A DNA stretch of 45,843 nt from a virus: IMG/VR virus record IMGVR_UViG_3300031673_000107, positions 1-45,843 of that record, one strand, 5' to 3'. Of this stretch, positions 1,990-43,146 are shown one piece after another. Position 1 is the stretch's first letter. Every line of letters starts with the position of its first letter. Under the pieces are notes generated by a model. That model did not search any database and was not told where the DNA came from. It worked only from the letters and a program-made list of their open reading frames with translations. The translations under genes were made by a program, and so were the position numbers.

Positions 1990-2312
1990 ATATGGGGTAA
2001 ATCGACTTGGCGATAATTCCCGGAATGCAGTGTCACAAACCCCATTTTTGGCCCTGTGAAGGCCCCTTTCTACTCTAACCTACCATACCCACCCCTACAC
2101 AAGTAACTAGAGCAGAACAGTGATGATTGGGGATGCGCAGATTTTGTGCCTAGTGCAGAAACACACCCAGACTAGACACTCTCAAAACCCCCAAAAGTGC
2201 CCTGGAGACCCCGTAAGAGGGGTTTTTATGTGGATATGGTTTTTGTAGGTCGATAACTGGGGTACAAGAAAGAGTGAAAACTATTTTTTGTTCACACCAT
2301 ATGTGGTGTGGC
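1990..2312. other. Intergenic stretch with no convincing gene
   Basis: No supported ORF is present. The stretch holds a short hairpin at about 2207-2222 (ACCCC, loop GTAAGA, GGGGT) followed by TTTTT on the plus strand, which resembles a weak rightward terminator although no rightward gene ends here. It also holds a palindrome (ACACCATATGTGGTGT) at about 2294-2309, directly before the first 43-base repeat. A 32-codon minus-strand ORF near 1943-2041 lacks a good ribosome binding site and was not called. Confidence 0.4.
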
Positions 2313-2355
2313 GCACTTTGTTCGCGCTACATTACGTGTGAACAAAAATGAGTGA
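2313..2355. repeat. 43-base direct repeat, copy 1
   Basis: This is identical over 43 bases to 2662-2704. It starts GCACTTTGTTCGCGCTACAT and ends with AACAAAAATGAGTGA. It contains an inverted repeat, TTTGTTC and GAACAAA, that can form a hairpin. It lies just downstream of the stop of the minus-strand gene at 2366-2611. An MTTase-independent role such as terminator, processing site or recombination site is possible, and the sequence does not decide which. Confidence 0.85.
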
Positions 2356-2365
2356 TAACGAATGT

Positions 2366-2611
2366 TCAGTCGAATCTGATGACTGCACGATAGTCTGGTA
2401 TCACCAAATCACTATCGAGCATGATTGTTAGTGCTCCAGAATGAAGATTTAGGGCATATTCTTGTACTGTTTCTGCTAAAACTTCGGTTTTTATGAAAAG
2501 TGTTCCTTCCGATGGGGCAGATTTTGTGTGACAAAACAACCAGAAGGGTTGTCCAGAAGCAATATCTCTGAATCGTACACTCTCTCTTGTTGGCCTACTT
2601 TCTATTTCCAT
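2366..2611 (-). CDS. Small phage protein, 81 residues, beta-rich
   Basis: The ATG at 2611 is chosen over an upstream in-frame ATG because it follows a perfect AAGGAGAGG ribosome binding site. The product contains SVRFRDIASGQPFWLFCHTK, then TLFIKTEVLAETVQEYALNL and VIPDYRAVIRFD. The pattern of F-R-D-I-x-x-G followed by a surface-strand K-T resembles a common phage small beta-barrel protein type of unknown function. The gene is bracketed on both sides by the 43-base repeat, so gene and repeat may form a cassette. Confidence 0.75.
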   Translation of the reverse strand: MEIESRPTRESVRFRDIASGQPFWLFCHTKSAPSEGTLFIKTEVLAETVQEYALNLHSGALTIMLDSDLVIPDYRAVIRFD

Positions 2612-2661
2612 TTTGTTCCTCTCCTTGTGTGTGTGGTGTTCACACCACATCTAGTTATGGT

Positions 2662-2704
2662 GCACTTTGTTCGCGCTACATTACGTGTGAACAAAAATGA
2701 GTGA
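2662..2704. repeat. 43-base direct repeat, copy 2
   Basis: This is an exact copy of 2313-2355, between the stop of 2730-2960 and the start of 2366-2611. The preceding bases (GTGGTGTTCACACCAC) again form a palindrome related to that near copy 1, so the repeated unit may be longer and diverged at one end. The spacing places one copy after each of two consecutive minus-strand genes. Confidence 0.85.
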
Positions 2705-2729
2705 CGACGAATTCTTAGACGGAAAGATT

Positions 2730-2960
2730 CTAATCCATCGTTTCGCCTAGTTGGTGACTAAGACATCCTTCTTGACACCATCTTTCATAATCCCAGCTAT
2801 AGATGCCGCTGGTGCCATTCGGCAATCTCATACAAGTTTGGCCAGAACACCATTTGCGGAATTGTGTTGCTTCTTTATGGGTATGATGAGCTTTGACCAT
2901 TTCCATTGTGACGTACGAAATGTCTTGATGAAAGAGATAGGTTGTTTTGGGAATTGCCAT
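2730..2960 (-). CDS. Hypothetical Cys/His-containing protein, 76 residues
   Basis: The product starts MAIPKTTYLFHQDISYVTME and contains HHTHKEATQFRKWCSGQTC and WCQEGCLSHQLG. The Cys and His residues could bind a metal, but I recognise no family. An AGGAG ribosome binding site lies 8 bases before the ATG. A 14-base perfect palindrome lies about 50 bases upstream, and copy 2 of the 43-base repeat follows the gene. Confidence 0.7.
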   Translation of the reverse strand: MAIPKTTYLFHQDISYVTMEMVKAHHTHKEATQFRKWCSGQTCMRLPNGTSGIYSWDYERWCQEGCLSHQLGETMD

Positions 2961-3009
2961 GATTGTGCTCCTATGTTATGCAGTGTCCAAGACAGCGCAG
3001 AGAAACACC

Positions 3010-3023
3010 CCCTCTATAGAGGG
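3010..3023. promoter_or_regulatory. 14-base perfect palindrome upstream of 2730-2960
   Basis: CCCTCTATAGAGGG is a perfect inverted repeat about 50 bases upstream of the start of the minus-strand gene at 2730-2960. There is no T-run, so it is not a typical terminator. An operator-like site for a dimeric repressor is a reasonable guess. Confidence 0.4.
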
Positions 3024-4105
3024 AGCATTTAACCACACTGGCAGCACACCCAAACGCGCCCGATCACGTCCTAAGCGGTCTGCAAGACATGGGTGGCCAA
3101 ACCCAATTTTGAGACTTTCTCAATGACAAGGCGCGATTGGCTATGCTGCCACGAACGACAACATAGCTTTCGGACGCGGGATTATTCGGGACTTTGCAGC
3201 CCTTTTCATCGTCATACGTCTTACAAAAGTTGACCGGAATCCCCACCAAAACCGATCTAGTCCCGCACAGTGCGCGCCAGTATAGACATCGCCCTATCCT
3301 TGCTTTTCTGCCAGCGTACTAGACAGGACGTTTTCGTGTGTCTTTAATTTACAACGGAGTATTTCGGAATGCGCCACCAGACCGGACAGACGGTTTGTTC
3401 TGGATTTACACTCGCCGTTGCGTCGTAGTCGTTCAGCGTACCAACAGAAACGCGCCGCGCTACTGGCGAACTTCCGTCGCATCAGACTTCCATGGAGTCT
3501 AACCACTATCCATGAACCAACGGCCCTTACCGCTAGCTTTGGTGTCGAGCGATTGTAAATTGTTCGATGGAATCGTTGTGACTAGATTGACGCGCAGAAA
3601 ATCTGACGACTTATCCCTACGACGATTATCAATTCAGAGTGAATCCGCCCTAATAGGACCATTCACAAAGTCAAAAAAATATGCTTTACCACTAGCTACT
3701 ACCGATTACGTTCTTCGCCTGGCACACATAGACGCTACTCTACAAGCGATTCGCGGAAACGATTCTTCACTAGCTTAGGCATAGACTTTCTGTCTGAATT
3801 GAACTCCCGCTTTAACGGCTTCGGCGTGCTAACGTTAGTCGGCTTGCGCCAACATTTTCCCGGACGTTCGACTATAGACCCTAAGACCGATAGCTACTAA
3901 ATCCGAGCGCTTCGCGCGACTGACGGTTCTACCGGGAACTACCCGATCCCCCGCCCTTATCAGACCTTGTGTCCGACTAATGGGTAGAATCAACGCGACT
4001 TATCGCCTTAATGCGCGTCATATAATGCCCGGAGTTATCGGGCGATTCTATATCCATCGGTCCGCGCTCGCGGACGAACCGAAAGCGCGGTACGAGAGAT
4101 ACAGA
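3024..4105. other. ORF-poor region of about 1.1 kb
   Basis: No gene here is convincing. Stops are frequent in all frames, and the longest frames (3064-3249 minus, 3294-3506 minus, 3512-3778 plus) lack ribosome binding sites. The minus-strand one at 3064-3249, containing GCKVPNNPASESYVVVRGS, is the best candidate gene. Base texture differs from the AT-rich rest: one hand-counted line (3061-3120) is 50 percent G+C and CpG is common. A perfect hairpin, GTCCGC/GCGGAC with a GCTC loop, lies at 4060-4075, just after the 4106-4432 gene. A structured non-coding RNA is possible but unproven. Confidence 0.4.
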
Positions 4106-4682: not shown

Positions 4683-5043
4683 TTCTATATACAAAAGAAA
4701 AACCGGCGTTTTTGATAGCGCCATGGATGATATTATCGGTAAACAACGTCCTGGTCCAATAATAATTACGTCTGCTTTTGGGGTCTTATAAAAGCTATTA
4801 TACAAGCAAAAAACCGTATATTCCTATAATAATCGGTATTTTGCCGTAGAAAACCGTTATCTTATAGGCACGACCCATAAAGGAGGTTATGCTAGTTCGA
4901 TAACTAACGATTTTAGTCCTATAATTATGAAAAAGTCGATATTATTGGCAAAATCCAATAAAAAACACGTCCTATAATACAAAAACCACGTTTTTTCTGT
5001 CGAAAACGACGATATTTTCACACACAGTAAACGATTATCGACC
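4683..5043. other. Intergenic region between divergent genes
   Basis: No ORF is supported in these 360 bases. The region is rich in ATAA, TATAG and CGATAA words. It carries repeated TTATAGGA-type words on the minus strand (see the repeat feature at 4916-5054). It lies between the start side of the leftward 4106-4588 genes and the rightward planctomycete-like gene, so it must hold any promoter for the latter, but I see no good rightward consensus promoter. Confidence 0.4.
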
Positions 5044-18405: not shown

Positions 18406-19365
18406 TTATTTAATCCCTACAACAGAGGAAATGATTTTATCGAAATTAATTGATTGCCCCCATTTTTTATTATAAGCTTGGATATAGTCCGAGACTCGCT
18501 TATCTTGGGTAATTGTTGCCGCAATAATTTCATAAAAAATATTTTTTATTTTGTTGATCGGTGCACGACGAGGTAGGTTGGTTTTTGATTCAGCTTGTTG
18601 AGCTTCATAAAGTAACTCTCTATAAATTTCTGTGACTTTTTCTAGCTTTATGGTTCCCCGTTTAATTTCTAATAAAAGTTTTGCATTTGGTCTAGGAAAA
18701 GTGAGACCACCAGTTTCCGTTAGTTCTTTCAATTGCCCTAAAAGTCTAATGGTGTGTGACGCACTGGAGGTACAATATCCATAGTGTTTTATTTGGAGCT
18801 TTCGTTTTGCCCCTAGTTTACGTCTAGCGGGCTGTGTTTCTTTCGGGCGATTGATAAATAATAGGTGAATTAATTTATCCATTTCTGTTTTGTTGGGGCG
18901 GAAGACCTTACGAATATTTTCGATGATCTGGTTTTCTGTTGTGGTCCTTTTAATGGGAACAAGTTGCGTCCCAGTAACTTTTCTCCATTCAGATTGTGCA
19001 TAACCCATAATCCGTCTAGCGAATTGTTCGCTGGCAAACAGTTTACGGTTGTGACGTAAAATTTTACCGACATTGGTACATTCAGCTATATTTGGTTTTG
19101 GCGCGAACAGGATTTCATATAGAAGTGGATCGCCTTTTATCAGTAATTCGAAAGTTCGTCCGATAGAATAGATTACTGTGTCTGGTTTTCGAATTACTCG
19201 CTGGTCGAATCGACTTAGACCTATTAAATATTCAAAAGGTGGTACTACGAGTCCCCTTAAATCGTGATCACTTTCTGGAGTATCGGTGCCGTATAGTTTA
19301 GACCCAGCTATGACTAAATAATCTGGATGTTCGAGGCTACATTCAAGAGCTTGTTCTTGTTTCAT
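18406..19365 (-). CDS. Predicted nucleotidyltransferase (COG3541-like), 319 residues
   Basis: The N-terminus DYLVIAGSKLYGTDTPESDH, then DLRG, contains the G-S-x-x-Y-G ... D-x-D signature of minimal nucleotidyltransferases. A FELLIKGDPLLYEILFAPK region typical of the phage COG3541 family follows. The helical C-terminal part has FRPNKTEMDKLIHLLFINRP and KHYGYCTSSASHTIRLLGQL. The two Asp residues would bind metal. Members are frequent in phages with large genomes, and their substrate is not established. It overlaps the upstream 19362 gene by ATGA and ends 33 bases from the convergent acidic gene. Confidence 0.75.
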   Translation of the reverse strand: MKQEQALECSLEHPDYLVIAGSKLYGTDTPESDHDLRGLVVPPFEYLIGLSRFDQRVIRKPDTVIYSIGRTFELLIKGDPLLYEILFAPKPNIAECTNVGKILRHNRKLFASEQFARRIMGYAQSEWRKVTGTQLVPIKRTTTENQIIENIRKVFRPNKTEMDKLIHLLFINRPKETQPARRKLGAKRKLQIKHYGYCTSSASHTIRLLGQLKELTETGGLTFPRPNAKLLLEIKRGTIKLEKVTEIYRELLYEAQQAESKTNLPRRAPINKIKNIFYEIIAATITQDKRVSDYIQAYNKKWGQSINFDKIISSVVGIK

Positions 19366-20456: not shown

Positions 20457-21032
20457 TTATCTACTATCGCCGTCTCCTCGTAGTGTATTGCGATTTTTAC
20501 GACTTAATAGTTTTTCTATGTTAAGATCGCATATTTCTTCTATAGATAAGCCACAAGCTTGATAAGCGATTGCTTTGATACACTGCAATATTGATGATAG
20601 GCCAGATGTTATGTTTACATAATATGGATATTTGCGTTCATGATTTCTGTTATGGCTATAGTACCATTGTTCGACTGATTTTGCTACTTCCGCCGATAAG
20701 CAGAAAAGGTGAATAGCAATTCTTGGTAAATCAAAATTTCTAACATGTTCTGCGGCTCTGTATCCCCCCATTATGTAAAGCATATCTATTTCTGCCATGA
20801 TTTCTGAACAAATTGTGGCAACATACCACATTATGTCCCCTAATTCCATGGCGATTGTTTTTTTACGTTCGGTGGTTATTATATTATTGTCATCGCGAAT
20901 AAGTTTTTTTATTTTTTCACATATTTCTCCACATTCTCCCATCAATCCAAGGGTTGGATATAACATATTCCTACCGATATCCGGGTAGATTGCCGTAATT
21001 TTGGTCTGTTTTTGGTATTCGCTTAGATTCAT
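20457..21032 (-). CDS. MazG-like nucleotide pyrophosphohydrolase, 191 residues
   Basis: The motif GLMGECGEICEKIKKLIRDD followed by MELGDIMWYVATIC is the E-x-x-E ... E-x-x-D metal-binding set of all-alpha NTP pyrophosphohydrolases (MazG superfamily). The C-terminus, IEEICDLNIEKLLSRKNRNT plus LRGDGDSR, is the typical MazG-like tail with R-K-x-R and G-D-G-D. There is an insertion of about 60 residues in the middle (HLFCLSAEVAKSVEQWYYSH), which makes it longer than usual. It would cleave NTPs or dNTPs, or lower (p)ppGpp-type signals. It overlaps the ClpP-like gene's end by 4 bases. Confidence 0.8.
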   Translation of the reverse strand: MNLSEYQKQTKITAIYPDIGRNMLYPTLGLMGECGEICEKIKKLIRDDNNIITTERKKTIAMELGDIMWYVATICSEIMAEIDMLYIMGGYRAAEHVRNFDLPRIAIHLFCLSAEVAKSVEQWYYSHNRNHERKYPYYVNITSGLSSILQCIKAIAYQACGLSIEEICDLNIEKLLSRKNRNTLRGDGDSR

Positions 21033-21739
21033 TTTTCTTCTATTTCGTATTCATTTTCTATTTCATGTTTAGTGCTTGTCATTCCAGGAGTCCACTTGTC
21101 ATTTTGAGTGTTTGTTGCAAAGAATTTGTATGGGTCGTCCAATCTTTCCATCACCCAATCAGCGAAACCATAAGAAACAGCTTGTTCGGCACTTAGTACC
21201 GTGTCGTGTGAACACATATTTTCAATTTTATCCAACGTAATTCGTGGTCTAGCTGCTCGCATTCTACTATAATAAATGCTGTATAGCTGTTTTCTTGTCT
21301 TAATGCTATATTTTATCCAAGCTTCAACTGCTTTACATGTACCGGACTCTGTTATATCTCCGTCATGAATCATAAAGACACAGTTTGGCGCGATGATACG
21401 TGAATCGCATGCTTGAAAAATAACCGATCCCATACTGGTAGCATATCCCCATGCTATACCATAAACATGGCAACGGGACATACGAATTGCATCAAACATA
21501 GCCATACCGTGATACCAATTTCCTCCAATATTATTCATATGAACAATTATAGGTTTATTGGAAATATTGCTTAGGTGAATCATGGCTTTCAGAAAAAATT
21601 CCGCCATACGACAATCGGTTCCAGATTCACCCTCTTCGTTTTCTGTTCCGGCTGTTTGTGAGCCCACGTAAATCAACCTCTGGGAAGGTAAATAATTAAA
21701 ATCGAATAAACGATCTACGTCTTCCTTTATCCGTGACAC
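21029..21739 (-). CDS. ClpP-like serine protease, 236 residues
   Basis: The ClpP fold is visible: KPIIVHMNNIGGNWYHGMAM, YGIAWGYATSMGSVIFQACD with the nucleophile S102, CVFMIHDGD with H125, and MCSHDTVLSAEQAVSYGFAD with D179 as third catalytic residue. The length is slightly above a single ClpP subunit because of an extended acidic C-terminus. Free ClpP-like proteins occur in phages as prohead proteases or as partners of host ClpX. It lies outside the head cluster, so a host-directed or regulatory role is more likely (inference). GTG start overlaps the preceding TAG. Confidence 0.8.
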   Translation of the reverse strand: MSRIKEDVDRLFDFNYLPSQRLIYVGSQTAGTENEEGESGTDCRMAEFFLKAMIHLSNISNKPIIVHMNNIGGNWYHGMAMFDAIRMSRCHVYGIAWGYATSMGSVIFQACDSRIIAPNCVFMIHDGDITESGTCKAVEAWIKYSIKTRKQLYSIYYSRMRAARPRITLDKIENMCSHDTVLSAEQAVSYGFADWVMERLDDPYKFFATNTQNDKWTPGMTSTKHEIENEYEIEEK

Positions 21740-22364: not shown

Positions 22365-23084
22365 TCACATCGAAAATTTTTCGTAACTTACATTCAAATA
22401 TTCTGCTGTCACACCTATGATTGGTTCGCTTATTTCGATGCCCACACAGTCTAGGCCAAGTCGTTGACACACTATTGCGGTAGTACCACTTCCCAAGAAT
22501 GGATCAAGAACACAACCATCCGGACAACAGTGTCCCTTTATTATTCGTTCCACCAGGGCTTCTGGAAGTTGTGTTGGACAGTGGTTCCTTCGTTCCTTAA
22601 AAGTCCCACAAATACGAGAGAACTCCCATACGTTAGGCGGCATTTTCCCGTCTTGGGAGGCTCGTTTGTCTTTATACTTTGTTTGTCGAGCACTGGGAAC
22701 TTTGATTTGTTCTGGTCGCACATAGTCAGAATTAAGCCAGTAGATGGGACGATAGCATAAGGCGTATTTGCCTTTGCTTGTCTGATCTTGTCCGAAGGTA
22801 TAATACCATTGCAATCTTTGAATCAATGAAATTTTTAGAGTATTTATAGTATTTTCTACTTCTCTGGTCCATTTTTCATTGAAAGTAAAAAAGATAGGCC
22901 CTTCAGTTAGGTTGGCCATTGTTTTGAGCCAAAGTTCAAGATTAGTTCTATATTCCTGTGTCGTTTGATTGTCTTTGAAGCCATTGTATTTAAGACCAAT
23001 ATTATCTGGTGGGTCTGCAACAATTAAGTCGATTTTATCGATTATCGGGGTTTTTTCAAATTTTCCATGAATTAATTTAATCAT
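22365..23084 (-). CDS. DNA methyltransferase (beta-class order, N6-adenine/N4-cytosine type), 239 residues
   Basis: The catalytic motif IV comes first (LIVADPPDNIGLKYNG, residues 20-35) and the SAM-binding motif I comes last (CVLDPFLGSGTTAIVCQRLG, residues 191-210), which is the beta-class order. Near the end, GLDCVGIEISEPIIGVTAEY is the conserved E-I-x pocket. Motif IV is DPPDN, with Asp where Tyr, Phe or Trp normally stacks on the flipped base; this is unusual. No restriction endonuclease lies beside it, so it is a solitary methylase, likely protecting phage DNA. It overlaps the 23077 gene by 8 bases. Confidence 0.85.
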   Translation of the reverse strand: MIKLIHGKFEKTPIIDKIDLIVADPPDNIGLKYNGFKDNQTTQEYRTNLELWLKTMANLTEGPIFFTFNEKWTREVENTINTLKISLIQRLQWYYTFGQDQTSKGKYALCYRPIYWLNSDYVRPEQIKVPSARQTKYKDKRASQDGKMPPNVWEFSRICGTFKERRNHCPTQLPEALVERIIKGHCCPDGCVLDPFLGSGTTAIVCQRLGLDCVGIEISEPIIGVTAEYLNVSYEKFSM

Positions 23085-27465: not shown

Positions 27466-27989
27466 TGTCGAAACTTGTTCTGCCGACCTATACGGTCGTA
27501 CGCGATACTCGGGAACAACTTGGACATGGCTGGACTTTCGATGCTCATCTTCCTGAACGCCGCGCTCCGAGATGTGCGGGGACGGTTGTTGATACTTTAG
27601 AAACTGGTGATTATAGTCTAGTTGGTTACACAGACATATTGGCTATAGAACGAAAATGTGGTTTCGCTGAACTTTGGGTAAATTATAGCAGTAAGAGACG
27701 AATAGCATTCGAAAATGAAATGGGGCGAATGTCTCAGCTTAAATACGCCTATATTATTGTTGAATCTTCTATTACTCCAGATACATTAGATTTGTCACCT
27801 CCACAGTTCACTAAGGGTGTACCAGGAACATCTCTGGTTCGTTGGTTAATGTCTCTTACTATTAAATATGGGGTGCAGTTTATTCCTGCGGGACAATGTG
27901 GTAGAAAAATTGCTCAACTAATCTTTGAAGAAGTCGTGCGAGTGGAAAGAGATCGTTGGGTTTCGAAAGGGGATTATTTTGGCCGCTAA
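27465..27989 (+). CDS. ERCC4-domain nuclease (XPF/Mus81-like), 174 residues
   Basis: ATG at 27465 follows AAAGGAG and overlaps the gmd stop. The product has TVVRDTREQLGHGWTFDAHL, VDTLETGDYSLVGY and ILAIERKCGFAELWVNY. This is the ERCC4 nuclease pattern (D-x-R-E, then G-D-Y, then the E-R-K-x3-D/E active site, here IERKCGFAEL), and IVESSITPDTL follows. It likely cuts branched or flapped DNA, perhaps packaging intermediates or recombination structures. Its end overlaps the large terminase start by 11 bases, so it is translated with it. Confidence 0.8.
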   Translation: MSKLVLPTYTVVRDTREQLGHGWTFDAHLPERRAPRCAGTVVDTLETGDYSLVGYTDILAIERKCGFAELWVNYSSKRRIAFENEMGRMSQLKYAYIIVESSITPDTLDLSPPQFTKGVPGTSLVRWLMSLTIKYGVQFIPAGQCGRKIAQLIFEEVVRVERDRWVSKGDYFGR

Positions 27990-30900
27990 TACGGCAGAAT
28001 TACAAGATTTGTTGTACGGAGAGCAAGGCCGCTATGGTTATCTCTTTCCTTATAGAAATCGTGTTCCAACAATTAAACATCATATTTTTACAGATTTAAA
28101 GAAATCACGACGAACACTCGATCAAGAAGTGGTAGAAAGAATGCTTGATCTAAATAACATTGGCTGGACCGCCAAGGTTGTTCTGAATCTTGATCTTTTT
28201 CCGCTTCAGATAGCTATATTACAAATGTTGTGGAATACTCCATTTCCAATGTTGGTGGCTGCGCGTGGAGGAGCTAAATCTTTTTCTTTAGCTGTATATG
28301 CAATTTTGCGAGCTTTATTGGACCCAGGATCAAAAGTTGTAATTATTGGTGCAGGTTTAAGACAGGCTCGTCTAGTTTTTAGTTACATAGAAACCATATG
28401 GAACAATGCCCCCGTTTTAAGAGACATTGTTGGCAGTAAGAAAAACGCTGGTCCTCGGCAAAATGTGGACCTTTGTTACTTTAGAATCGGTGACAGTATA
28501 ATTACGGCTCTGCCTCTCGGCGATGGCTGCGTATCCAAACATTCGTTGCTTACTTACGACGATGGTTTTGACATTATATCGAGAGATTATCTCAATAATC
28601 AACATGATAAAAGCATTATATACAAACACCGGCAAATATGGGGGAATAAATCATTTCGACAAACGGACGAATCATATTGCAATGGCAAATCGCAAACAAA
28701 AAAAATTAGAACACATCATGGATTTGAAATTGAGGGAACACATAACCATAAATTGAAAATTGTTCGAGATAAACAAGTTCAATGGATTCGAATGGATGAA
28801 ATGCAAATTGGCGACAGAATTCTTTTAGATCGCTCCGTTCGATGGCATCGTGGACAAACAGATATCACAGAAAAAGAGGCTTACGCTATTGGTCTTTTGA
28901 TAGGAGTTAGAACAAAAGATAAACAATTTCCCGCCGCCATTCTTAAGTCATCTCGTAAAGTAACATCGGCATTTATTTCTGGACTTTTCGATAGTGACGG
29001 CAATATTCAAGTGCAAACCAGCAAGGGCGGCACCAGCATAGCCATTGGCTTTACGAATACCAGCAAGGAATTAGTCATACAACTTCAATATATTCTTCTT
29101 CATTATGGGATAGTTGCCCATGTTTGTTCCAGGAAGAGAGATGAGAAATGGGAAAGATGTTATGAATTATTGATAACAGGCGAAGATGTGCTCATTTTTG
29201 CTAACAAAATAGGGTTTAGATTGAAGCGGAAACAAAATGAGCTATTCGCAGGGATTGCCAAGAAAAAACGCTGGATGGATCAAAAAGATGATATTCCAAA
29301 TATCTTAGAGACCATGATAGATATAGCAAAAAACAATATGATCCCGTGGATAAGTAAAGATAATCAACAAGTGTGTGCGGGACATCTCAAAGACAAGAAG
29401 ACCGCCAGTCGTCCATTGGTAGAAAAATTTATAAGAGTGTATGGCCACATAGACGATCCTCGTATTGCCCACATTCGTTGTCTTGCTGATCCCGACATTT
29501 ATTATGATGAAATAATATCTATAGAAGATTCGGAATGTGTCACTTTTGATGTTCATGTGCCAGATGGACACGAATATTGTGCCGGAGGATTCTATAGTCA
29601 CAATACTAAAATTCGTGGATTTCGTGCCACTTCCATTTTATGTGATGAATTCGCGTGTTTGATTGGTCAAACTCCATTGACTTACGCCGACAAATTTGGG
29701 TGCATTTCGGATGGTCATGATTTATCGAATGTTAAGAAACAAACATTTAACAGAGAAACACAGATTTGGGGCAATGGTCTATTTAGAAAATCTACACAAA
29801 CATATTGTAACGGTATACATGACACTAAAAAAATATTGACAGGTAGAGGTAGAGTTATAGAAGGAACCCATAATCATATGATTCGTGTATTGAGAAATTA
29901 TTCCTTAGAGTGGACAAGATTGGATGCAATAGAAATTGGCGATTATGTACCTGTTGATCGTTCGTGGAGGTGGCATAGTGGACAAACAGACGTAACAAAG
30001 AATGAGGCTTACGCTATCGGCCTATTAGTAGGGGATGGCAATTATACAAGAAGGGGGCTCACTGGTTATTGCAGTTATGATCAACAGCTACTTGATGCTA
30101 TGACGGCATTTGGCAACTTTACTGTTCGCCGCACTAAGCCTTATGAAATGATTATGCATGGTGTTCAAAAACAACAACAGTTATTCGATAGATATGGATT
30201 TAAGTTTGCATATGCTCACGAAAAAATGTGGCCAACAGCAATCCTTGGTTCGTCTAGGGACATAGTTACCGCCTTTATTCAGGGGCTTATGGACACCGAT
30301 GGTCACGTGCAACGGATTAAACTTTATAATGATTCATATGGATGTATGGTTAGATTCGCAAGTACGAGTAAGTCCTTAGTAGATAACTTACAATATATTT
30401 TATTGCATTATGGAATCATTTCTCATGTTTATCATACTACTGGTTTTAGAAAAAGGCCGTTATACGTGTTAACCATTAGTGGGACCAACGTTAAACTGTT
30501 TTATGAGTACATTGGTTTTAGATTAGTAAGAAAACAAAAAATCTTACAAAATGTAATAGATCATAAGAGATTGTGGAAAGACAATGTTGATTATATTCCC
30601 GATATTAAAAATATGATTTTATCTATTATTTCTGATTATGGACCATTAAAAGGTTGCCATAAATCTAAGCGGTGGGATTTCGCAACGCTGAGCAGGGTTA
30701 AGCACATTTCAAGAGAGAGGGCTACACAGTTTTTAGACTATTATGGACATCTTGATGACAAAAGAATATCTACAATCCGTTCTTTAGCAAATGGTGATTA
30801 TTATTACGATCGTGTTACCTCTATTTCTAACGGTAGATGTGTAACGTATGATACATATGTACCAGATGGTAATGAATATTGTGCGAATGGATTTTACAGT

Positions 30901-32409
30901 CACAATAGCATTCCGTCGGATATATTTGATATAGTGGTTCGAGGTTTTGCTGCAACAACTAAAACCCCCATAGACGAAGCGAGACGCCTTGCTTTTGAAA
31001 GAGACCTCGATAAACTCAATTTTCCCTCCGATATTAAACACACTCTTGTGAAAAATGGTGGTAAAATGCGGGGTAATCAAATTGTTTATTCTGGTACGGC
31101 TTATTATGCTTTTAATCATTTTGCCAAGCGATATGAGATGTGGCAAGATATTATTAAAAGCAAAGGCGATCCAGAAAAGATATCACAAATTTTTGGTGGT
31201 GATAATTTGATTCCAGAAGGCTTTGATTACCGCGATTATGCTGTTATACGAATTCCATATAATCATTTACCAGATGGTCTTCTCGACCAAAGACAATTAG
31301 CACATGCAAAAGCTATTCTTCCGCGTAATATTTTTCTTATGGAGCACGGTGCGATTTTTGTTAAAGATTCGGATGGTTTTTTCCCCCGTAGTTTAATCGA
31401 AGGATGTACCGTTGGACCGAATAAGCCTATTGAAACTCCTGATGGTGCGATTACTTTTACGCCTTTAATGAGGGGGCAGAAAAATTGTAAATATGTTGCA
31501 GGAATCGATCCTGCTGCCGAAAGAGATAATCTAGCTATTGTTGTGGAAGAGGTTTGGGCGAATCATTCTCGGGTGGTCTATTGTTGGGCTGTAAATAAAA
31601 AAGAATTTATTAATCGTAAGAAAAAAGGGTTAATCACGGAAGACGATTATTACGCTTATTGTTGTGCTCGGATTCGTGAGATTACTCAATTGTTCAACTT
31701 AATTCGAATTGAAATGGATAGTCAAGGTGGTGGTTATGCCATAGCAGAAATGCTTCGTAGCAAAAAACTGCTAGACAAAGAAAAGGGGGATTTTCCGATT
31801 TATGAGGTTATTGATTTTAACGATCCTAAGTCTACCGACGGAGAGATCGATGGACGACATATTTTACATCTTGTGAAACCAAGTTCGGAATTTAATCAAG
31901 AAGCTAACATAGCTCTTCATAAAGGCCTAGAAACTCGTTCTTTATTGTTTCCAGCTTTTGATAGCGTCAAAATGTATGCTGCGATCGAGGCAGAAAAAGC
32001 TGCTGGTATTCTTTTTGACACTTTTGAAGAAAATGTGTTTAATTTAGAAGAACTTAAAAATGAGCTTTGTACTATTCAGATGAGTGAGACGGCGACAGGT
32101 AAAGAAAAGTTCGATACTCCACAAGTGGTTCAGCCCGGTGCTATTGAGGGTCGCAGTCGTAAGGGGAGACTTCGTAAAGATCGTTATACAGCATTATTGT
32201 TGTCATATAAATATATTTACGATACAGACATAGCTCCAGATAATGCCATTGATTATGAAAATGTGGTTGGTAATTTTGAGAAGCGGACCAAAGTTCCTAA
32301 AGATGAACCGCTTTATAGGGGGCCGGGAGTCGGTAGGATGCGAAATAGTGAATATACTCGTGGTGGCGGTTCTTTTGGGGCGGTAAAACGAAGCAAGAAA
32401 ATTTTGTAG
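27979..32409 (+). CDS. Large terminase subunit (TerL) precursor with two inteins, 1476 residues
   Basis: A TTG at 27979 with AAAGGGG upstream is the likely start. The N-extein (residues 1-183) has the Walker A motif ARGGAKS at about 95-101. Then intein 1 (184-542), the short middle extein TKIRGFRATSILCDEFA (543-559, with the Walker B ILCDEFA), intein 2 (560-976) and the C-extein (977-1476). The C-extein holds the RNase H-like nuclease: GIDPAAERDNLAIVVEE and EMDSQGGGYAIAEML carry acidic metal ligands. Spliced length would be 700 residues, normal for TerL. The protein powers DNA packaging into the prohead and cuts concatemers. Both splice sites lie by the ATPase active site. Confidence 0.9.
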   Translation: MAANTAELQDLLYGEQGRYGYLFPYRNRVPTIKHHIFTDLKKSRRTLDQEVVERMLDLNNIGWTAKVVLNLDLFPLQIAILQMLWNTPFPMLVAARGGAKSFSLAVYAILRALLDPGSKVVIIGAGLRQARLVFSYIETIWNNAPVLRDIVGSKKNAGPRQNVDLCYFRIGDSIITALPLGDGCVSKHSLLTYDDGFDIISRDYLNNQHDKSIIYKHRQIWGNKSFRQTDESYCNGKSQTKKIRTHHGFEIEGTHNHKLKIVRDKQVQWIRMDEMQIGDRILLDRSVRWHRGQTDITEKEAYAIGLLIGVRTKDKQFPAAILKSSRKVTSAFISGLFDSDGNIQVQTSKGGTSIAIGFTNTSKELVIQLQYILLHYGIVAHVCSRKRDEKWERCYELLITGEDVLIFANKIGFRLKRKQNELFAGIAKKKRWMDQKDDIPNILETMIDIAKNNMIPWISKDNQQVCAGHLKDKKTASRPLVEKFIRVYGHIDDPRIAHIRCLADPDIYYDEIISIEDSECVTFDVHVPDGHEYCAGGFYSHNTKIRGFRATSILCDEFACLIGQTPLTYADKFGCISDGHDLSNVKKQTFNRETQIWGNGLFRKSTQTYCNGIHDTKKILTGRGRVIEGTHNHMIRVLRNYSLEWTRLDAIEIGDYVPVDRSWRWHSGQTDVTKNEAYAIGLLVGDGNYTRRGLTGYCSYDQQLLDAMTAFGNFTVRRTKPYEMIMHGVQKQQQLFDRYGFKFAYAHEKMWPTAILGSSRDIVTAFIQGLMDTDGHVQRIKLYNDSYGCMVRFASTSKSLVDNLQYILLHYGIISHVYHTTGFRKRPLYVLTISGTNVKLFYEYIGFRLVRKQKILQNVIDHKRLWKDNVDYIPDIKNMILSIISDYGPLKGCHKSKRWDFATLSRVKHISRERATQFLDYYGHLDDKRISTIRSLANGDYYYDRVTSISNGRCVTYDTYVPDGNEYCANGFYSHNSIPSDIFDIVVRGFAATTKTPIDEARRLAFERDLDKLNFPSDIKHTLVKNGGKMRGNQIVYSGTAYYAFNHFAKRYEMWQDIIKSKGDPEKISQIFGGDNLIPEGFDYRDYAVIRIPYNHLPDGLLDQRQLAHAKAILPRNIFLMEHGAIFVKDSDGFFPRSLIEGCTVGPNKPIETPDGAITFTPLMRGQKNCKYVAGIDPAAERDNLAIVVEEVWANHSRVVYCWAVNKKEFINRKKKGLITEDDYYAYCCARIREITQLFNLIRIEMDSQGGGYAIAEMLRSKKLLDKEKGDFPIYEVIDFNDPKSTDGEIDGRHILHLVKPSSEFNQEANIALHKGLETRSLLFPAFDSVKMYAAIEAEKAAGILFDTFEENVFNLEELKNELCTIQMSETATGKEKFDTPQVVQPGAIEGRSRKGRLRKDRYTALLLSYKYIYDTDIAPDNAIDYENVVGNFEKRTKVPKDEPLYRGPGVGRMRNSEYTRGGGSFGAVKRSKKIL
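28528..29604 (+). mobile_element. Intein 1 in TerL, 359 residues, degenerate homing endonuclease
   Basis: It starts at Cys (C1, GGC|TGC) after PLGDG and ends YSHN before Thr, so C1, the penultimate His, terminal Asn and +1 Thr are all present for protein splicing. Block B GTHNHKLK and block F VTFDVHVPDGHEYCAGGFYS are clear. The LAGLIDADG (DOD) region is broken: after EAYAIGLLIG the text goes VRTKDKQ to ILKSSRK, with the GDG acid and about 58 residues missing relative to intein 2, while the second motif (ISGLFDSDGN) remains. Splicing looks intact; homing activity is probably lost. Confidence 0.85.
29656..30906 (+). mobile_element. Intein 2 in TerL, 417 residues, with complete LAGLIDADG homing endonuclease
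   Basis: It begins with Cys right after the Walker B CDEFA and ends YSHN before Ser (+1). C1, penultimate His and terminal Asn are present. Block B is GTHNHMIR. The endonuclease carries two DOD motifs, AIGLLVGDG and IQGLMDTDG, both with acidic residues, so it may be active. Throughout it is related to intein 1 (QIWGN, DRSWRWHSGQTDVT, EAYAIGLLVG, VTYDTYVPDGNEYCANGF). It therefore arose by transfer of an intein of the same family into a second site of the same gene. Confidence 0.9.
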
Positions 32410-37294: not shown

Positions 37295-38323
37295 ATGAAA
37301 CGTAGTAAAGTTGTAAAACCAACCGCCGAACAAGTAGAATTGTTACGTCGGACAGGCTCTCCCAATAAATCCGAAGCCATGGAGGCGATGCACGCTTTAG
37401 CTCAGGCACTACAGGTACCGCTGCGTTCAGCACTACTTGATGGCGACATCTTGGGTGGGATTTTCGCTTCTGAAATTCTCGATCCAGGTGCAACTGCTGA
37501 GTATCCGCTGGATTTCTATCAGACTGGGCAAGAAAATGACTATGTTGCATACCAGATTCCGAGCGAAGGGGCGCTACCTCAACGAACTATCTCTGGGGAT
37601 GCTGTAACGATTAGTACTTATGATGTAGGTAATGCAATCGATTGGCCTCTAAAGTATTCTACTTCTGCACGATGGGATATTGTTGCTCGTGCAATGGAAG
37701 TTATGGAGGCTGGATTTGTTAAGAAAATGAACACGGACGGCTGGAGAGTTATTATTGCCGCTGGTGTCGGTCGTACTGATTACGCTGGTGGTGCGCCATT
37801 GGTGTATGATAGTGCCGCAACGGCGGGTCAATTTACGAAGCGTCTTGTGTCTTTGATGAAAACCAGCATGACTCGTCTTGCTGGTGGAAATACTGCAACA
37901 CTTAAAAGAGGCCGTTTAACTGATTTGTATATTAGTCCAGAAGCTTTAGAAGACATTCGGGAATGGGATCGAGATGAAGTTGATGATTTGACTCGCAGAG
38001 AGATTTTACTTGCTGACGAAGGTGGTAGTTTGATGGCCCGTATTTATGGGGTCAATTTACATCCACTAGACGAACTTGGTGTCGGCCAAGAATTTCAGGC
38101 ATATTTTGATACGTTGGGTCTTAGCGTAGGCACTAGCGACGAAGAAATTGTTGTGGGCCTTGACCTATCCCATAGAAATTCGTTCGTGATGCCTATTAAG
38201 CGTCAGTTGGCAATTTTCGAGGATGATATGTTGCACAGGCGTCAGAAAGCTGGTTTTTATGGATGGCAGGAGCACGGTTTTGCATCCCTCGACGGACGCA
38301 GGGTTTTGCTCGGATCATTCTAA
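37295..38323 (+). CDS. Major capsid protein (HK97 fold type), 342 residues
   Basis: A perfect AAGGAGGTGAAGAAACA leader precedes the ATG, suiting a very abundant protein. The sequence has ALLDGDILGGIFASEILDPG (N-arm), TISTYDVGNAIDWPLKYSTS, MEVMEAGFVKKMNTDGWRVI (spine-like helix) and VNLHPLDELGVGQEFQAYFD, ending in the P-domain-like IKRQLAIFEDDMLHRRQKAG. Helical spine and beta P-loop parts in this order, the length and the location after protease and decoration genes identify it. A strong terminator follows. Confidence 0.8.
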   Translation: MKRSKVVKPTAEQVELLRRTGSPNKSEAMEAMHALAQALQVPLRSALLDGDILGGIFASEILDPGATAEYPLDFYQTGQENDYVAYQIPSEGALPQRTISGDAVTISTYDVGNAIDWPLKYSTSARWDIVARAMEVMEAGFVKKMNTDGWRVIIAAGVGRTDYAGGAPLVYDSAATAGQFTKRLVSLMKTSMTRLAGGNTATLKRGRLTDLYISPEALEDIREWDRDEVDDLTRREILLADEGGSLMARIYGVNLHPLDELGVGQEFQAYFDTLGLSVGTSDEEIVVGLDLSHRNSFVMPIKRQLAIFEDDMLHRRQKAGFYGWQEHGFASLDGRRVLLGSF

Positions 38324-38334
38324 ACTATTGTAAA

Positions 38335-38398
38335 CAAAGAACTTATGTTCTTTGATCAAGCACGGGAGGGAAGATGAAAATCTTCTCTCTCTTTTTTT
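38335..38398 (+). terminator. Double hairpin with strong terminator after the major capsid gene
   Basis: A perfect 8-bp hairpin (CAAAGAAC, TTAT, GTTCTTTG, 38335-38354) is followed by a 10-bp stem with one G-U pair, GAGGGAAGAT, loop GAAA, ATCTTCTCTC (38366-38389), and a T-run to 38398. The second is a textbook rho-independent terminator that ends capsid transcription and separates the following HTH-HNH gene. The first may protect the mRNA 3' end. Confidence 0.85.
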
Positions 38399-38472
38399 AT
38401 TTCAAAATTTTCCATAAAATCCTAAACAAACGGTTGTTTGGAACGTATAACTCTCTAAGAAGGGAGGTGTGT

Positions 38473-40245
38473 ATGGCTCATAAAAAATTGTTTGATTTAG
38501 ATAAAGCTACTTCGTTATATCAGAACGACGGGCTGTCTACATCAAAGATAGCTAAACAACTTGGAGTACATCTTCAAACAATCATTAACAGATTCAAAGA
38601 AGCTGGGATTCCTTTGAGACCGCAGGGACAAGCTCCGAATTCCATTGATCCTAAAAAAATAGGGTACGACCATAAGGTAAGGAAAATGTCAACCAAAGAA
38701 ATAGCACAAAAATATTTTATATCAACGTCTCTTGTCCGGAAAAAATTGGCCGAATGTGGAATCAGAGTAAAAAAAACTGGTGGTGCATTCAAAGCAATAG
38801 GCATAGACGAAGAAGAATTAAGAAAATTATATCGTGATGAATTTATGACCATGAGAGCATGTGCTAAACATTTTGGCGTTAGTGATTCTGTTATTCGGAG
38901 TCGTCTCAAAGGGCTCAAAATAAATATTCGTTCGTGTAGTGAATCTTTGACAGACTCGTCAATAACCAATAGACAGATTGTCGATCTATATTGGGGGCAA
39001 AATTTGAGCATAGCGGAGACCGCCAAACAATTAGATAAAAGTGAAAGTTTCGTTAAGTTAAGACTGCAAAAATCAGGGGAGGGAACACGTTCTGTTTCGG
39101 CGGGCGCTAGGCTATGGAGGAAAAGCGATGACATTTCCGATGATCAATTGATTTATTTATACGATGTATGCGGCTGGTCGTGTGAAAAAATTTCTGCTTA
39201 TTTTCATAAAAGCGCTCCATTTACAAGGCATAGATTTATGGCTATCGGCAAAGCTCGACGACAAAGTGTTGGGAAATACAATGGTTCGTGGAAGGGCGGC
39301 GTAACTGACATCCGTAATGCCGTTCGTGGTTGTGCTGCTTCTCTCAAGTGGAGAAACGACGCTTTCGCGAAACAACAATACAAAAGTGAGATTTCCAATA
39401 GAAAGATCAGGGAATTGAACTGCCATCATATTTACCCATTCCATATAATTCTACGATCCTCGTTAACAAAGCACACACCTTTACCAGATGAATATCGTAG
39501 CTTGGCTGTTATTGGTGATCCCAGATTTTATGATGATAATAATAGTTTGGTTGTTTCGAAAGAAGAACACGATAAAATTGAAGAAGGAAAATTAGAGCAA
39601 TCGCATCCTTGGTGGAAAATTTGGCGAGCATACCCAGACTTCGCTATCAGTCATAGCGATTTAACGGTAAATTATTTTAGGCTATTCAACGATAGCGGCC
39701 AAATACAACCAATAGAATATGCTTTACAGACTTCGACGCCCAAAGAAATACGTAGTTTAATTAGATACGAGCATTACTTAGGGACGCTTGTTGGATCAAA
39801 ACTTATCCTTGTTGCGAAGAGGGGCAATATAATTATTGGCATTGCCACGTTTGGCACGGGAACCAACCGATATATTAAAGATGATACATGGGAGTTGACT
39901 CGTTTATGCATTCCCTTCTATGTCGTGCGACCGTTTGCTTGTGAGTTTCTTAACGAATGTTGTACATATATTAAAAATCATTGTTCGCAAATCAAAAGAT
40001 TGATAGCATTTGCTGATTCTTCTGTCGGGCATAATGGCGGTGTTTATAGGATGGCTGGATGGGAAAAGGGCGGAAGAACTCAACCCAGTTATGCCTACTT
40101 CGATCCTACGATATTCAGTCTAAAACACAAGGCGTCTTGCCGAAGAATAAAGGGAATAGATAAAACAGAAAAGGAACTGGCTCAAGAGAGAGGATGGATT
40201 CGTATTCCATTGAGTCATAAATACAGATACACTTTAACTTTGTAA
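38473..40245 (+). CDS. Five-fold HTH array fused to HNH nuclease and Mom-like domain, 590 residues
   Basis: ATG at 38473 follows AGGGAGGTG; an upstream ATG lies inside the terminator. Residues 10-255 hold five helix-turn-helix modules of one type (for example IAKQLGVHLQTIINRFKEAG and CAKHFGVSDSVIRSRLKGLK). Residues 268-368 are an HNH nuclease: GSWKGGVTDIRNAVRG, LNCHHIYPFHI (H318, H319) and NNSLVVSKEEHDK (N357, H366). Residues 425-545 resemble Mu Mom: EHYLGTLVGSKLILVAKRGN, IIIGIATF, WELTRLCIPFYVVRPFACEF, then IAFADSSVGHNGGVYRMAGW. Mom is a GNAT-type enzyme that modifies adenines in DNA. So one protein could bind, cut and modify DNA, or be a homing endonuclease carrying a captured modification domain. 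Confidence 0.75.
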   Translation: MAHKKLFDLDKATSLYQNDGLSTSKIAKQLGVHLQTIINRFKEAGIPLRPQGQAPNSIDPKKIGYDHKVRKMSTKEIAQKYFISTSLVRKKLAECGIRVKKTGGAFKAIGIDEEELRKLYRDEFMTMRACAKHFGVSDSVIRSRLKGLKINIRSCSESLTDSSITNRQIVDLYWGQNLSIAETAKQLDKSESFVKLRLQKSGEGTRSVSAGARLWRKSDDISDDQLIYLYDVCGWSCEKISAYFHKSAPFTRHRFMAIGKARRQSVGKYNGSWKGGVTDIRNAVRGCAASLKWRNDAFAKQQYKSEISNRKIRELNCHHIYPFHIILRSSLTKHTPLPDEYRSLAVIGDPRFYDDNNSLVVSKEEHDKIEEGKLEQSHPWWKIWRAYPDFAISHSDLTVNYFRLFNDSGQIQPIEYALQTSTPKEIRSLIRYEHYLGTLVGSKLILVAKRGNIIIGIATFGTGTNRYIKDDTWELTRLCIPFYVVRPFACEFLNECCTYIKNHCSQIKRLIAFADSSVGHNGGVYRMAGWEKGGRTQPSYAYFDPTIFSLKHKASCRRIKGIDKTEKELAQERGWIRIPLSHKYRYTLTL

Positions 40246-40282: not shown

Positions 40283-40322
40283 GGACTGAACCAAATCTAT
40301 GGTTTTCAGTCCTTTTCTTTTT
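40283..40322 (+). terminator. Rho-independent terminator after the HTH-HNH-Mom gene
   Basis: GGACTGAA and TTCAGTCC pair, extended by CCA/TGG around ATCTA, and are followed by TTTTCTTTTT. The GTGTATAAT element for the next operon begins two bases after it. Confidence 0.8.
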
Positions 40323-40323
40323 G

Positions 40324-40332
40324 GTGTATAAT
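40324..40332 (+). promoter_or_regulatory. GTGTATAAT promoter-like element before the HTH/RCC1 operon
   Basis: GTGTATAATTC lies about 30 bases before the ATG at 40364, directly after a terminator, so it must start new transcription if the tail genes are separately expressed. There is no -35 match. Confidence 0.6.
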
Positions 40333-40363
40333 TCTGGTGAAAAGTCTTTTTTGTGGGGGCGAT

Positions 40364-40759
40364 ATGTCTTTATCTGATACAAAGGTGAGAGAACTATATG
40401 AGCGTGATCGGTTCTGTTGTGCCGATATTGCTCATTTTGATGGTTGCAGTGAAACAAAAATGTACCATAGATTAAAGGCTTTGGGCGTTAAAATCCGGGG
40501 AAGATCAGAAGCAAATCAGATTTTTCCCGACCATCTTTTTATAGCACTTTATAATCTGGGACTATCTGCTTCTCAGATCGCTAGGTTATTGGGAGTTCAT
40601 CCTTCAACTGTAATTAAGAGATTCGGGTCACTCAACTTCCCTTTGCGGTCTCGCAATGTGGCTTCGGCAATCAGATACAATGAAGAAGAATTTCAACGAT
40701 ATTTTATGGTACCAAAAGTTTTAGATGAGTTGAAAAATTATTTGTTGGTGATTTCATGA
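40364..40759 (+). CDS. Two-HTH DNA-binding protein, 131 residues
   Basis: ATG at 40364 (GGGGGCGAT upstream) is preferred to an upstream GTG. Residues 5-40 (VRELYERDRFCCADIAHFDG, then KMYHRLKALGVKIRG) and 50-95 (LYNLGLSASQIARLLGVHPS, then VIKRFGSLNFPLRSR) are two HTH modules of the same type as those in the 38473-40245 protein. It has no nuclease part. It may be a homing-endonuclease fragment or a small regulator. Its stop overlaps the RCC1 gene start by ATGA. Confidence 0.65.
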   Translation: MSLSDTKVRELYERDRFCCADIAHFDGCSETKMYHRLKALGVKIRGRSEANQIFPDHLFIALYNLGLSASQIARLLGVHPSTVIKRFGSLNFPLRSRNVASAIRYNEEEFQRYFMVPKVLDELKNYLLVIS

Positions 40760-42216
40760 ATGCTATTGCGTCTGGCAATTTGTATATATATAATTGTGTG
40801 TCTATAAACACAGTCGATACACCGTCCAATCTCTATGCATGGGGGGACAACACTTATGGTAAATGTGATATCCCATTGCCGAATGGAAGTTATACTGTAG
40901 GCACCGGTGGAGATGAACACAGTCTTGGGCTAAAATTAGACGGATCAATCGCAGCATGGGGGAACAACACTCATGGTCAGTGCAATGTGCCTTCTCCTAA
41001 TACAAATTTTGAGGCGATTTCTGCTGGGTGGATTCACAGTTTAGGTCTTAAGTCTGATACGTCGATAATAGCATGGGGAAACAACTCTCAGGGACAAAGA
41101 AATGTTCCTGCACCAAATACGGATTTTATAGCACTTAGTGCTGGTTATTATCATAGTTTGGGAGTTAAATCTGATGGTTCTATTATAACTTGGGGATATA
41201 ACAACGAAGGTCAATGTGATGTTCCTTCGCCGAATACCGATTTTATAGATGTTGCCGGAGGTTATCTTCATAGTATTGGTTTGAAATCTGATGGTTCGAT
41301 AGTGTCGTGGGGCTATGATTCTCATGGCCAATGTAGCGATACTCCGTCTAGTGGGGTGTTTTGTAAAGTTGTCGCTGGTCGTAGTTATAATCTCGGTTTG
41401 AAATTTGATGGTTCTATTGTGGCGTGGGGAAGTAATATTGAGGGACAATTAAATATTCCATCTCCAAATACAGATTTTGTGGATATCGCAGCGGGGGATA
41501 CACACGGTTTAGGTTTAAAATCTGATGGATCAGTTGTAGCATGGGGGGATAAGACTTATGGTAAATGTGATATACCTTTGCCGAATGCTGATTTTATAAC
41601 AATAGGGGCTTCCGTTTCTTGTAGTTTTGGTGTACGGAAACAAACACTAGGTAATTTATTCATCTCTGGTCCGTTACTTGCTACGGTCTCTGGGAATCTA
41701 TTCGTTAACGGAATGGATAATATTGATGAGTGCAGTGATTTGTCTATCATGGGATCGGACGAAATATCCGAATCTATATCATTATCCACTTTTGCTCCAC
41801 CACCAGATTTATTTAATATTCGCAATCTTTCTATTTCTGGTCCGCTACCTATTACAACTTCTTGTGATTTATTTATTTATGCTTATTCTGACGATGTTAA
41901 TTTCTATAATAATCTATACATATGTGGTTGTAAAAGGTTCGGATTACCAATTAGTGGCACAGAATTTAAATATATTGAGAGATTAACTAGGACATCTGAT
42001 TATCATCCTCAATTGATAGGATCATTTGATCCTGCGATGTCGGGTGTTAATATTTTTGTTTGGGACATCACCGGTGGCGAAAACATTCCAGTTGCAATCA
42101 CAGACAGTAATTGTTACGCTATAGGTGATACGGGTAAATGGGGATGGTCCACCGAGCACATTCCGTTTTCGGGATATTGTGAACGTCATTATGTATGGCA
42201 AATGATGATAACATAG
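40756..42216 (+). CDS. RCC1-type beta-propeller protein with C-terminal tail modules, 486 residues
   Basis: Seven units of about 40 residues follow the pattern AWGxNxxGQCxVPxPNxxF, then AGxxHSLGLKSDGSI (for example WGNNTHGQCNVPSPNTNF and AGWIHSLGLKSDTS), about residues 28-300. This is an RCC1-like seven-bladed propeller. After it come repeated short modules LGNLFISGPL and SGNLFVNGM, and a C-terminal domain ending YCERHYVWQMMIT related to the 43146-43496 protein. Propellers on phage tails likely bind receptors or other tail proteins. There is no signal peptide, as expected for a virion part. Confidence 0.8.
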   Translation: MNAIASGNLYIYNCVSINTVDTPSNLYAWGDNTYGKCDIPLPNGSYTVGTGGDEHSLGLKLDGSIAAWGNNTHGQCNVPSPNTNFEAISAGWIHSLGLKSDTSIIAWGNNSQGQRNVPAPNTDFIALSAGYYHSLGVKSDGSIITWGYNNEGQCDVPSPNTDFIDVAGGYLHSIGLKSDGSIVSWGYDSHGQCSDTPSSGVFCKVVAGRSYNLGLKFDGSIVAWGSNIEGQLNIPSPNTDFVDIAAGDTHGLGLKSDGSVVAWGDKTYGKCDIPLPNADFITIGASVSCSFGVRKQTLGNLFISGPLLATVSGNLFVNGMDNIDECSDLSIMGSDEISESISLSTFAPPPDLFNIRNLSISGPLPITTSCDLFIYAYSDDVNFYNNLYICGCKRFGLPISGTEFKYIERLTRTSDYHPQLIGSFDPAMSGVNIFVWDITGGENIPVAITDSNCYAIGDTGKWGWSTEHIPFSGYCERHYVWQMMIT

Positions 42217-42231
42217 ACGGGAGAAATTAAC

Positions 42232-43146
42232 ATGATTATCCGTGTGTGGGGAAGAAATAATTATGGACAACTAGATATGCCACCCGAGGCGTTTGGTGAT
42301 GATTTTGCAGAAGTTGCGGCGGGATGGTACCATACCCTTGCGCGCAAATCAGATGGTTCTTTAATAGCATGGGGATGGAATGATTTTGGTCAAATTGACC
42401 TGCCGATACCTAATGAAAATTTTATAAAAATATCAACAGAATTTGCTCATAACGCAGCTTTAACAACTAGTGGCACTGTTGTGTGTTGGGGAAGAGACGA
42501 TTATGGGCAAGTTAGCGACGCTCCGGTTGGTACCGGTTTTGTGGATGTTTCGGCCGGTAATCGTCATTGTTTAGCTCTTACATCAAGTGGTACTATCGTA
42601 GCTTGGGGAATAGACGCTTTTAATCAAGTTAGCCATACCCCAACTGGTTCAAATTTTACACAAGTATGGGCGGGCAGTTTTAGTTCCTTTGCCTTAACTT
42701 CCGAAGGATACATAGAAACATGGGGACGGGGCGATTTAAATCAACTAGAAGTGCCGTCACCCAACGAAAATTTTGTGGCAGTAAGATATTGTGCTGGTTT
42801 AAAATCTGATGGTACTGTTGTATTATGGGGACCAAAACCCGACTATCCTGGAGCTAGCGAAGATGATAAATACCCCGAAATTCCTATGGTAGTAGCTACA
42901 GCACCGAATAATTTTAGAGAAATAATGACAAGTATCTTCGGATGGAGTATAGCCTTAACGAACAATAATGTAATTGTAGTATGGGGTCGTAACGAGTATA
43001 ATCAATGCGAACCTCCTGCCCCCCTTACTGGTTGGAAGTGTGTTTCGGCGGGTGTATATCACGGTGTGGGTTTAAAAGAAGTCGCGACCGAAAGTTGTTA
43101 TGGCGAATTTTTCTTGCGTTGTTCTAAAATAAGGGAGAAAAGATAA
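42232..43146 (+). CDS. Second RCC1-type beta-propeller protein, 304 residues
   Basis: It starts MIIRVWGRNNYGQLDMPPEA, and units such as VAAGWYHTLARKSDGSLIAW and VSAGNRHCLALTSSGTIVAW repeat about six times. It lacks the N-terminal SGNLYI module and the C-terminal extension of the first protein. The two propeller genes are adjacent and similar, so they are probably duplicates. GGGAGAAATTAAC precedes the ATG. Likely a virion surface or tail protein. It overlaps the next gene by TAATG. Confidence 0.8.
   Translation: MIIRVWGRNNYGQLDMPPEAFGDDFAEVAAGWYHTLARKSDGSLIAWGWNDFGQIDLPIPNENFIKISTEFAHNAALTTSGTVVCWGRDDYGQVSDAPVGTGFVDVSAGNRHCLALTSSGTIVAWGIDAFNQVSHTPTGSNFTQVWAGSFSSFALTSEGYIETWGRGDLNQLEVPSPNENFVAVRYCAGLKSDGTVVLWGPKPDYPGASEDDKYPEIPMVVATAPNNFREIMTSIFGWSIALTNNNVIVVWGRNEYNQCEPPAPLTGWKCVSAGVYHGVGLKEVATESCYGEFFLRCSKIREKR

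Follow-up and report, generated by a model that had tools for sequence, protein, structure and literature searches.

An HTH-HNH protein with a fused Mom-type domain beside a viral capsid gene, a probable homing-type endonuclease cassette

In the IMG/VR virus record IMGVR_UViG_3300031673_000107, analyzed over its positions 1 to 45,843 (45.8 kb, hereafter the window), a single 590-aa protein joins five HTH modules, an HNH nuclease domain and a C-terminal Mom-type domain. We consider it probable that the corresponding gene is a free-standing (intergenic) cassette of the HNH homing endonuclease type, whose fused Mom domain most likely still modifies adenines. The mobility of this cassette is well supported by the comparison of related loci; cutting, modification, location of the target and self-protection are what we infer for its product. 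The gene, its parts and the limits of the site it occupies are the following:

37295..38323, + strand: gene of the major capsid protein (342 aa), which anchors the site on its upstream side; assigned from gene order and a weak match to the PHROG major head protein
38364..38391, + strand: intrinsic terminator behind the capsid gene; the cassette starts, on its 5' side, shortly after it
38446..38451, + strand: -10-like TATAAC, putative promoter of the cassette itself; position before the start codon conserved in relatives
38460..38469, + strand: strong Shine-Dalgarno-like sequence AAGGGAGGTG, upstream of the ATG
38473..40245, + strand: HTH(x5)-HNH-Mom protein gene, 590 aa; ORF, Pfam/PHROG matches and intact homologs
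38497..38622, + strand: HTH module 1, residues about 9-50; Pfam, model and module similarity
38650..38775, + strand: HTH module 2, residues 60-101; model and module similarity
38809..38934, + strand: HTH module 3, residues 113-154; model and module similarity
38968..39093, + strand: HTH module 4, sigma-r4-like, residues 166-207; Pfam, model and module similarity
39139..39264, + strand: HTH module 5, residues 223-264; model and module similarity
39268..39588, + strand: HNH nuclease domain, residues about 266-372 (H319, N357, H366); phrog_8446, hhalign and invariant residues
39724..40236, + strand: Mom-type GNAT domain, residues 418-588 (H434, Y435, E474, L475, R477, C490, D515, Y525)
40327..40332, + strand: TATAAT in the conserved TGGTGTATAAT promoter of the following gene; 3' boundary of the cassette
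40364..40759, + strand: gene of a small two-HTH protein, downstream anchor of the site; found in filled and most empty relatives

The ORF runs from an ATG at 38473 to a stop at 40245 and is preceded by a -10-like sequence and a ribosome-binding site belonging to the cassette, the former being TATAAC in the window and TATAAT in relatives L001, L002 and L004. Intact homologs were found in L001, L002, L003 (with fewer HTH modules), L004, L012, L017, L019 and L020. No full-length relative was found among GenBank phages, which gave matches at the HTH level only, and a scan of genome contigs gave no bacterial or prophage homolog.

The cassette is placed between the terminator of the capsid gene and the TGGTGTATAAT promoter of the small HTH gene. 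The capsid gene comes after portal and decoration-like genes and has 399 related stretches in viral contigs, while its product found no match among GenBank phages. At 40322-40345, and in related loci, the TGGTGTATAAT promoter is followed by a palindrome-like AAAGRTCTTT wherever the small HTH gene is present. This sequence, slightly diverged in the window, is missing from L038, L044 and L017, all devoid of that gene, and is a candidate operator of the small HTH protein; one strict pattern detected no second copy of the promoter/operator motif in the window.

Further downstream, two RCC1-repeat (beta-propeller) proteins are encoded among the structural genes (40756-42216 and 42232-43146), and other repeat proteins take their place in related loci. 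Elsewhere in the window, the terminase large subunit ORF (27925-32409; 1,494 aa) contains intein splicing and LAGLIDADG homing domains at about residues 255-560 and 620-1004, and thus probably two inteins in one terminase. A RlaP-like RNA repair nucleotidyltransferase (18406-19365, - strand; PF10127, 1.6e-19) was also recognized, as was a ClpP-related protein resembling head maturation proteases (21029-21739, - strand; NF045542, 7.6e-22, under the cut-off of that model), whose gene lies far from the capsid genes and on the opposite strand.

The AlphaFold model of the full-length protein (pLDDT 54) is poor beyond the HTH array, and for this reason only its HTH part was used: it contains exactly five tri-helical modules. 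Pfam HTH and sigma-r4 models match the array (best 9e-12), the mutual similarity of modules 1-4 exceeds that of shuffled sequences, and module 5 is similar to modules 1 and 4. The number of modules varies within the family, L003 and L017 lacking the first 105 residues and L021 featuring more than five. The second module of the small protein encoded at 40364 is 54% identical to module 1 over 40 aa, in agreement with the proposal that this gene carries the same HTH type.

Pfam HNH models did not match the window copy even at E=10, and a search of PDB sequences with the HNH profile was equally negative. The domain was nonetheless recognized through a PHROG HNH endonuclease match (1.9e-21, a score to which the HTH part contributes) and by hhalign comparison of the family profile to the HNH domain of Mom-less cassettes located at the same site (98.9%, 1e-17), some of which match HNH_2 (4e-4). 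The putative catalytic residues H319, N357 and H366 are invariant. The presence of an HNH domain, read by the initial annotation from signature residues, is therefore borne out.

The C-terminal region is recognized as Mom by both sequence and structure. PF25680 (Mom) matches residues 418-588 with E=4.4e-14 and 53 bits, against a curated cut-off of 27.1 which each of the 10 other cassette records searched also passes, and the Mom-like phrog_1384 matches the protein at 9e-19. A model of the last 185 residues, built from 11 relatives (pLDDT 84.6), finds Mu Mom (8bv8) as its best PDB match (E=6.9e-9), followed by many GNAT acetyltransferases; in a viral structure library a Salmonella phage Mom ranks first, with many annotated endonucleases among the matches after it. 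The sequence profile alone (11 rows) also finds 8bv8, with E=0.005. The C-terminus is thus predicted to have a GNAT fold rather than an unrelated one; the initial annotation had placed the Mom domain at residues 400-560, roughly the right region, its actual extent being 418-588. Structure models, profiles and invariant residues together confirm that five HTH modules, an HNH domain and a Mom-like C-terminus coexist in one protein.

Comparison with Mu Mom (the 241-aa sequence L106, about 20% identical to the window domain) indicates that H58, Y59, E108, L109, R111, D149 and Y159 correspond to H434, Y435, E474, L475, R477, D515 and Y525. These seven residues are kept across the window family, as they are in stand-alone Mom proteins, and the conserved Mom residues other than S124 are invariant in its 11 copies. 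S124 of Mu, mutated in the inactive crystal form, aligns with C490 with no gap after R111, the column being tentative at about 20% identity. This position is a Cys in most family copies, a Ser in L019 and L020, an Ile in L021, and a Ser or Thr in the aligned stand-alone relatives; Cys could substitute for Ser here. In the one unsaturated pair, L019 and L020, dN/dS is 0.06 for Mom, 0.11 for HNH and 0.20 for HTH, Mom being the most constrained part of the protein. Judging from kept residues and constraint, the Mom domain of the family is probably active. A second possible DNA-modifying enzyme of the phage, an N6/N4 DNA methylase (PF01555, E=1e-34), is encoded at 22365-23084 on the - strand.

In related loci, the interval between the capsid and the small HTH genes is found in three states: a Mom cassette in 11 contigs (window included), where its intergenic place is behind the conserved and essential major capsid gene, an HNH cassette without Mom in another 11, and no cassette in 8.

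Mom cassette at the capsid-gene site: window, L001-L004, L012/13, L017-L020
HNH cassette without Mom at the capsid-gene site: L026, L027/29, L031, L034, L035, L039/40, L042, L048, L055
No cassette at the capsid-gene site: L022, L023, L032/33, L041, L049, L038, L044; the small HTH gene is also missing in L038 and L044

A filled and an empty site can be compared in L036 (the same record as L017) and L038, which are colinear and 87% identical in nucleotide sequence over 7.1 kb, but feature 1,554 bp at the site in the former and 44 bp in the latter; their capsid proteins are sisters with 100/99 support. On a tree of capsid proteins, in which 15 of 24 forks are open, the site has passed from one state to another at least 11 times. 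This pattern of filled, alternative and empty sites beside the capsid gene makes the cassette look like a selfish homing nuclease, and the suggestion that the gene is a selfish element is, accordingly, well supported.

Exchange of flanking sequence along with the cassette is suggested by one clear breakpoint, for which ordinary homologous recombination is also a possible source. L019 and L020 are free of mismatches for about 1.2 kb, as far as position 3130 within the capsid gene, while differences are dense from 3228 through the 3' end of that gene (its last 40%) and the cassette; synonymous divergence is 0.26 in the capsid gene and two to three times as large, 0.6-0.8, in the cassette. Modules appear, from sequence comparison, to be shuffled between copies: L012 and L002 are 82% identical in the Mom part, 60% in HNH and 40% in HTH.

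In L021 the HTH-HNH-Mom gene lies at a different place, not at the capsid-gene site, and a HTH-LAGLIDADG endonuclease gene (2274-3392) is found immediately upstream of it. In L018 a single in-frame TAG (4935-4937) parts the HTH-HNH from the Mom ORF, which continues in the same frame: it may represent a sequencing error, a split gene or decay, and it suggests that fusion is not needed in every copy.

A single PF25680 match is present in each of 10 cassette-bearing records, and none in 8 relatives without a cassette, 7 of which are 119-168 kb long; since several records are fragments, further Mom genes may have been missed. Whole-genome Mom modification would thus not be a fixed trait of these phages, allowing for records that may be incomplete.

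Several known systems resemble the cassette in part. Mu Mom (PF25680, phrog_1384, PDB 8bv8) shares with the window domain the GNAT-like fold and the seven conserved residues, but stands alone and has S124, while the window Mom is fused to HTH-HNH and features a Cys in that position. Hef-type homing endonucleases (phrog_3339, phrog_559), known in phage U5, Campylobacter phages and AR9, are similarly free-standing nucleases with a C-terminal Mom-like domain. They are, however, composed of zinc-finger-like repeats and a REase-fold nuclease, so that the window protein, with its HTH array and HNH domain, does not belong to them. Their Mom-like domain keeps H58, L109, R111 and Y159, has lost Y59 and S124 and varies at D149, the set of residues in the window being fuller; Hef-type proteins with such a partly lost active site were identified in the sequences labeled L103, L109, L110, L114 and L115. 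The HTH-HNH endonucleases of L026, L027, L031 and L055 share with the window the place of insertion, the HTH arrays and a homologous HNH domain, but not Mom.

The AR9 REase-Mom protein, used as a query, matched 408 phage records, with a coverage of 80% or more of its length in 366 and up to 12 places per genome, many matches being annotated as Hef-like homing endonucleases. Hef endonucleases ending in a Mom-like domain are found, overall, in about 370 phage genomes. Their genes adjoin capsid genes in Campylobacter phage F352 and in phages Octan and Kuja; in a T4-like phage such a gene separates nrdA from nrdB, and in other cases RNA polymerase genes are the neighbors. Cutting of nrdB has been reported for Hef of phage U5 (PMC2988022). 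Phage homing endonucleases are known to lie preferentially near the genes for terminase, ribonucleotide reductase and capsid, as well as near other essential genes, and to shuffle their DNA-binding domains (PMC10448857). Among the annotations seen, a single one hints at the Mom-like domain carried by these widespread enzymes, the "putative nuclease/acetyltransferase protein" of phage Octan.

In jumbo phages, Mom domains are typically fused to REase-fold nucleases and a combination of protection and attack has been proposed, according to Iyer et al. 2021 (PMC7824862). These proteins, which may overlap the Hef set, have nuclease and Mom in one chain as the window protein does, and a self-marking logic has been proposed for them, but their nuclease has a REase fold instead of HNH; the passages of the study that were consulted contain no analysis of filled and empty sites. 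The fusion of a nuclease to Mom in a homing endonuclease is therefore already known. As far as could be checked, the HTH-HNH form of the fusion, its fuller active site and the three-state site are new, and nothing was found in the literature on HNH-Mom fusions specifically.

Other explanations have to be weighed. The cassette might act as a weapon similar to a restriction-modification system, with Mom marking all of the phage genome as a protection from host restriction, and HNH attacking unmarked host or competitor DNA. Such a role was predicted for the jumbo-phage fusions by Iyer et al. 2021 (PMC7824862), Mu Mom is an anti-restriction enzyme (PMC6483171), and the active-site residues of the window domain are retained. 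We regard it, however, as rather unlikely: an array of five modules points to a target that is long and rare, not to frequent sites, HNH-only cassettes occupy the same site, the alternation of filled and empty states at a single spot is the pattern of homing, and close cassette-free relatives, in records of up to 168 kb, have no Mom anywhere, which argues that genome-wide momylation is dispensable. The same absence weakens the anti-restriction reading of the initial annotation; its other proposal, a phage defence protein, found no support, PADLOC giving only a HTH-level match. That the protein is an ordinary homing endonuclease, with a degenerate, non-catalytic Mom-like domain which only assists DNA binding, also seems unlikely. 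Degeneration of this kind does occur, as the losses of Y59, S124 and sometimes D149 in Hef enzymes demonstrate, and C490 replaces the Ser of Mu; but the invariance of the other conserved residues, and a constraint stronger than a mere scaffold requires, speak for catalysis.

The fixed position, with the capsid gene on one side and a small gene of related HTH type on the other, might suggest a domesticated regulator or processing enzyme for expression of the capsid region, retained for the benefit of the phage, the more so as the capsid repressor CapR shares DNA-binding domains with homing endonucleases (PMC10448857). The cassette is, however, missing or replaced in close relatives with intact neighbors, making this very improbable. 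An assembly chimera of unrelated genes, conceivable for a window consisting of a single metagenomic record, has a negligible probability. The initial annotation had proposed looking for homologs with the same domain order, and ten other IMG/VR contigs carry nuclease and Mom in this order at the same locus, as one continuous ORF in nine of them and as two adjoining pieces in L018. Chance or chimerism was accordingly rejected, the arrangement also recurring at a different place in L021.

According to the favored interpretation, that of a homing-type endonuclease with a fused Mom domain, the five-HTH array would bind a long stretch of DNA as its target, probably within the conserved neighborhood of the capsid gene or next to it, and the HNH domain would cut this target in co-infecting relatives without the cassette, which recombinational repair would then copy into the cut genome. 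The Mom-type domain would act at or near the target that HNH cuts; being tethered to the same array, it could mark the DNA of carriers and spare it from cutting. That the protein marks its own cut site in this way is plausible, and the evidence agrees with the suggestion of the initial annotation that the element would cut unmodified DNA and mark its own. The complete scheme, in which one HTH array aims a cutter and an adenine marker, within one polypeptide, at the same site, so that carriers would be immune while retaining an intact target sequence, would amount to a gene drive of the restriction-modification kind encoded by one gene; we advance it tentatively, as a possibility on the doubtful side. 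Many Mom-less HNH cassettes fill the capsid-gene site, evidently without any need for Mom.

As a rule, the genome that carries a homing endonuclease escapes cutting because the target is removed by insertion or by sequence drift. A mobile nuclease to which a seemingly functional DNA-marking enzyme is attached would represent a different route to the same end, and the occurrence at one site of empty, cutter-only and cutter-plus-marker states makes the idea of self-sparing directly testable. If self-marking is true, the Hef endonucleases would be a parallel version, in which the marking domain has decayed.
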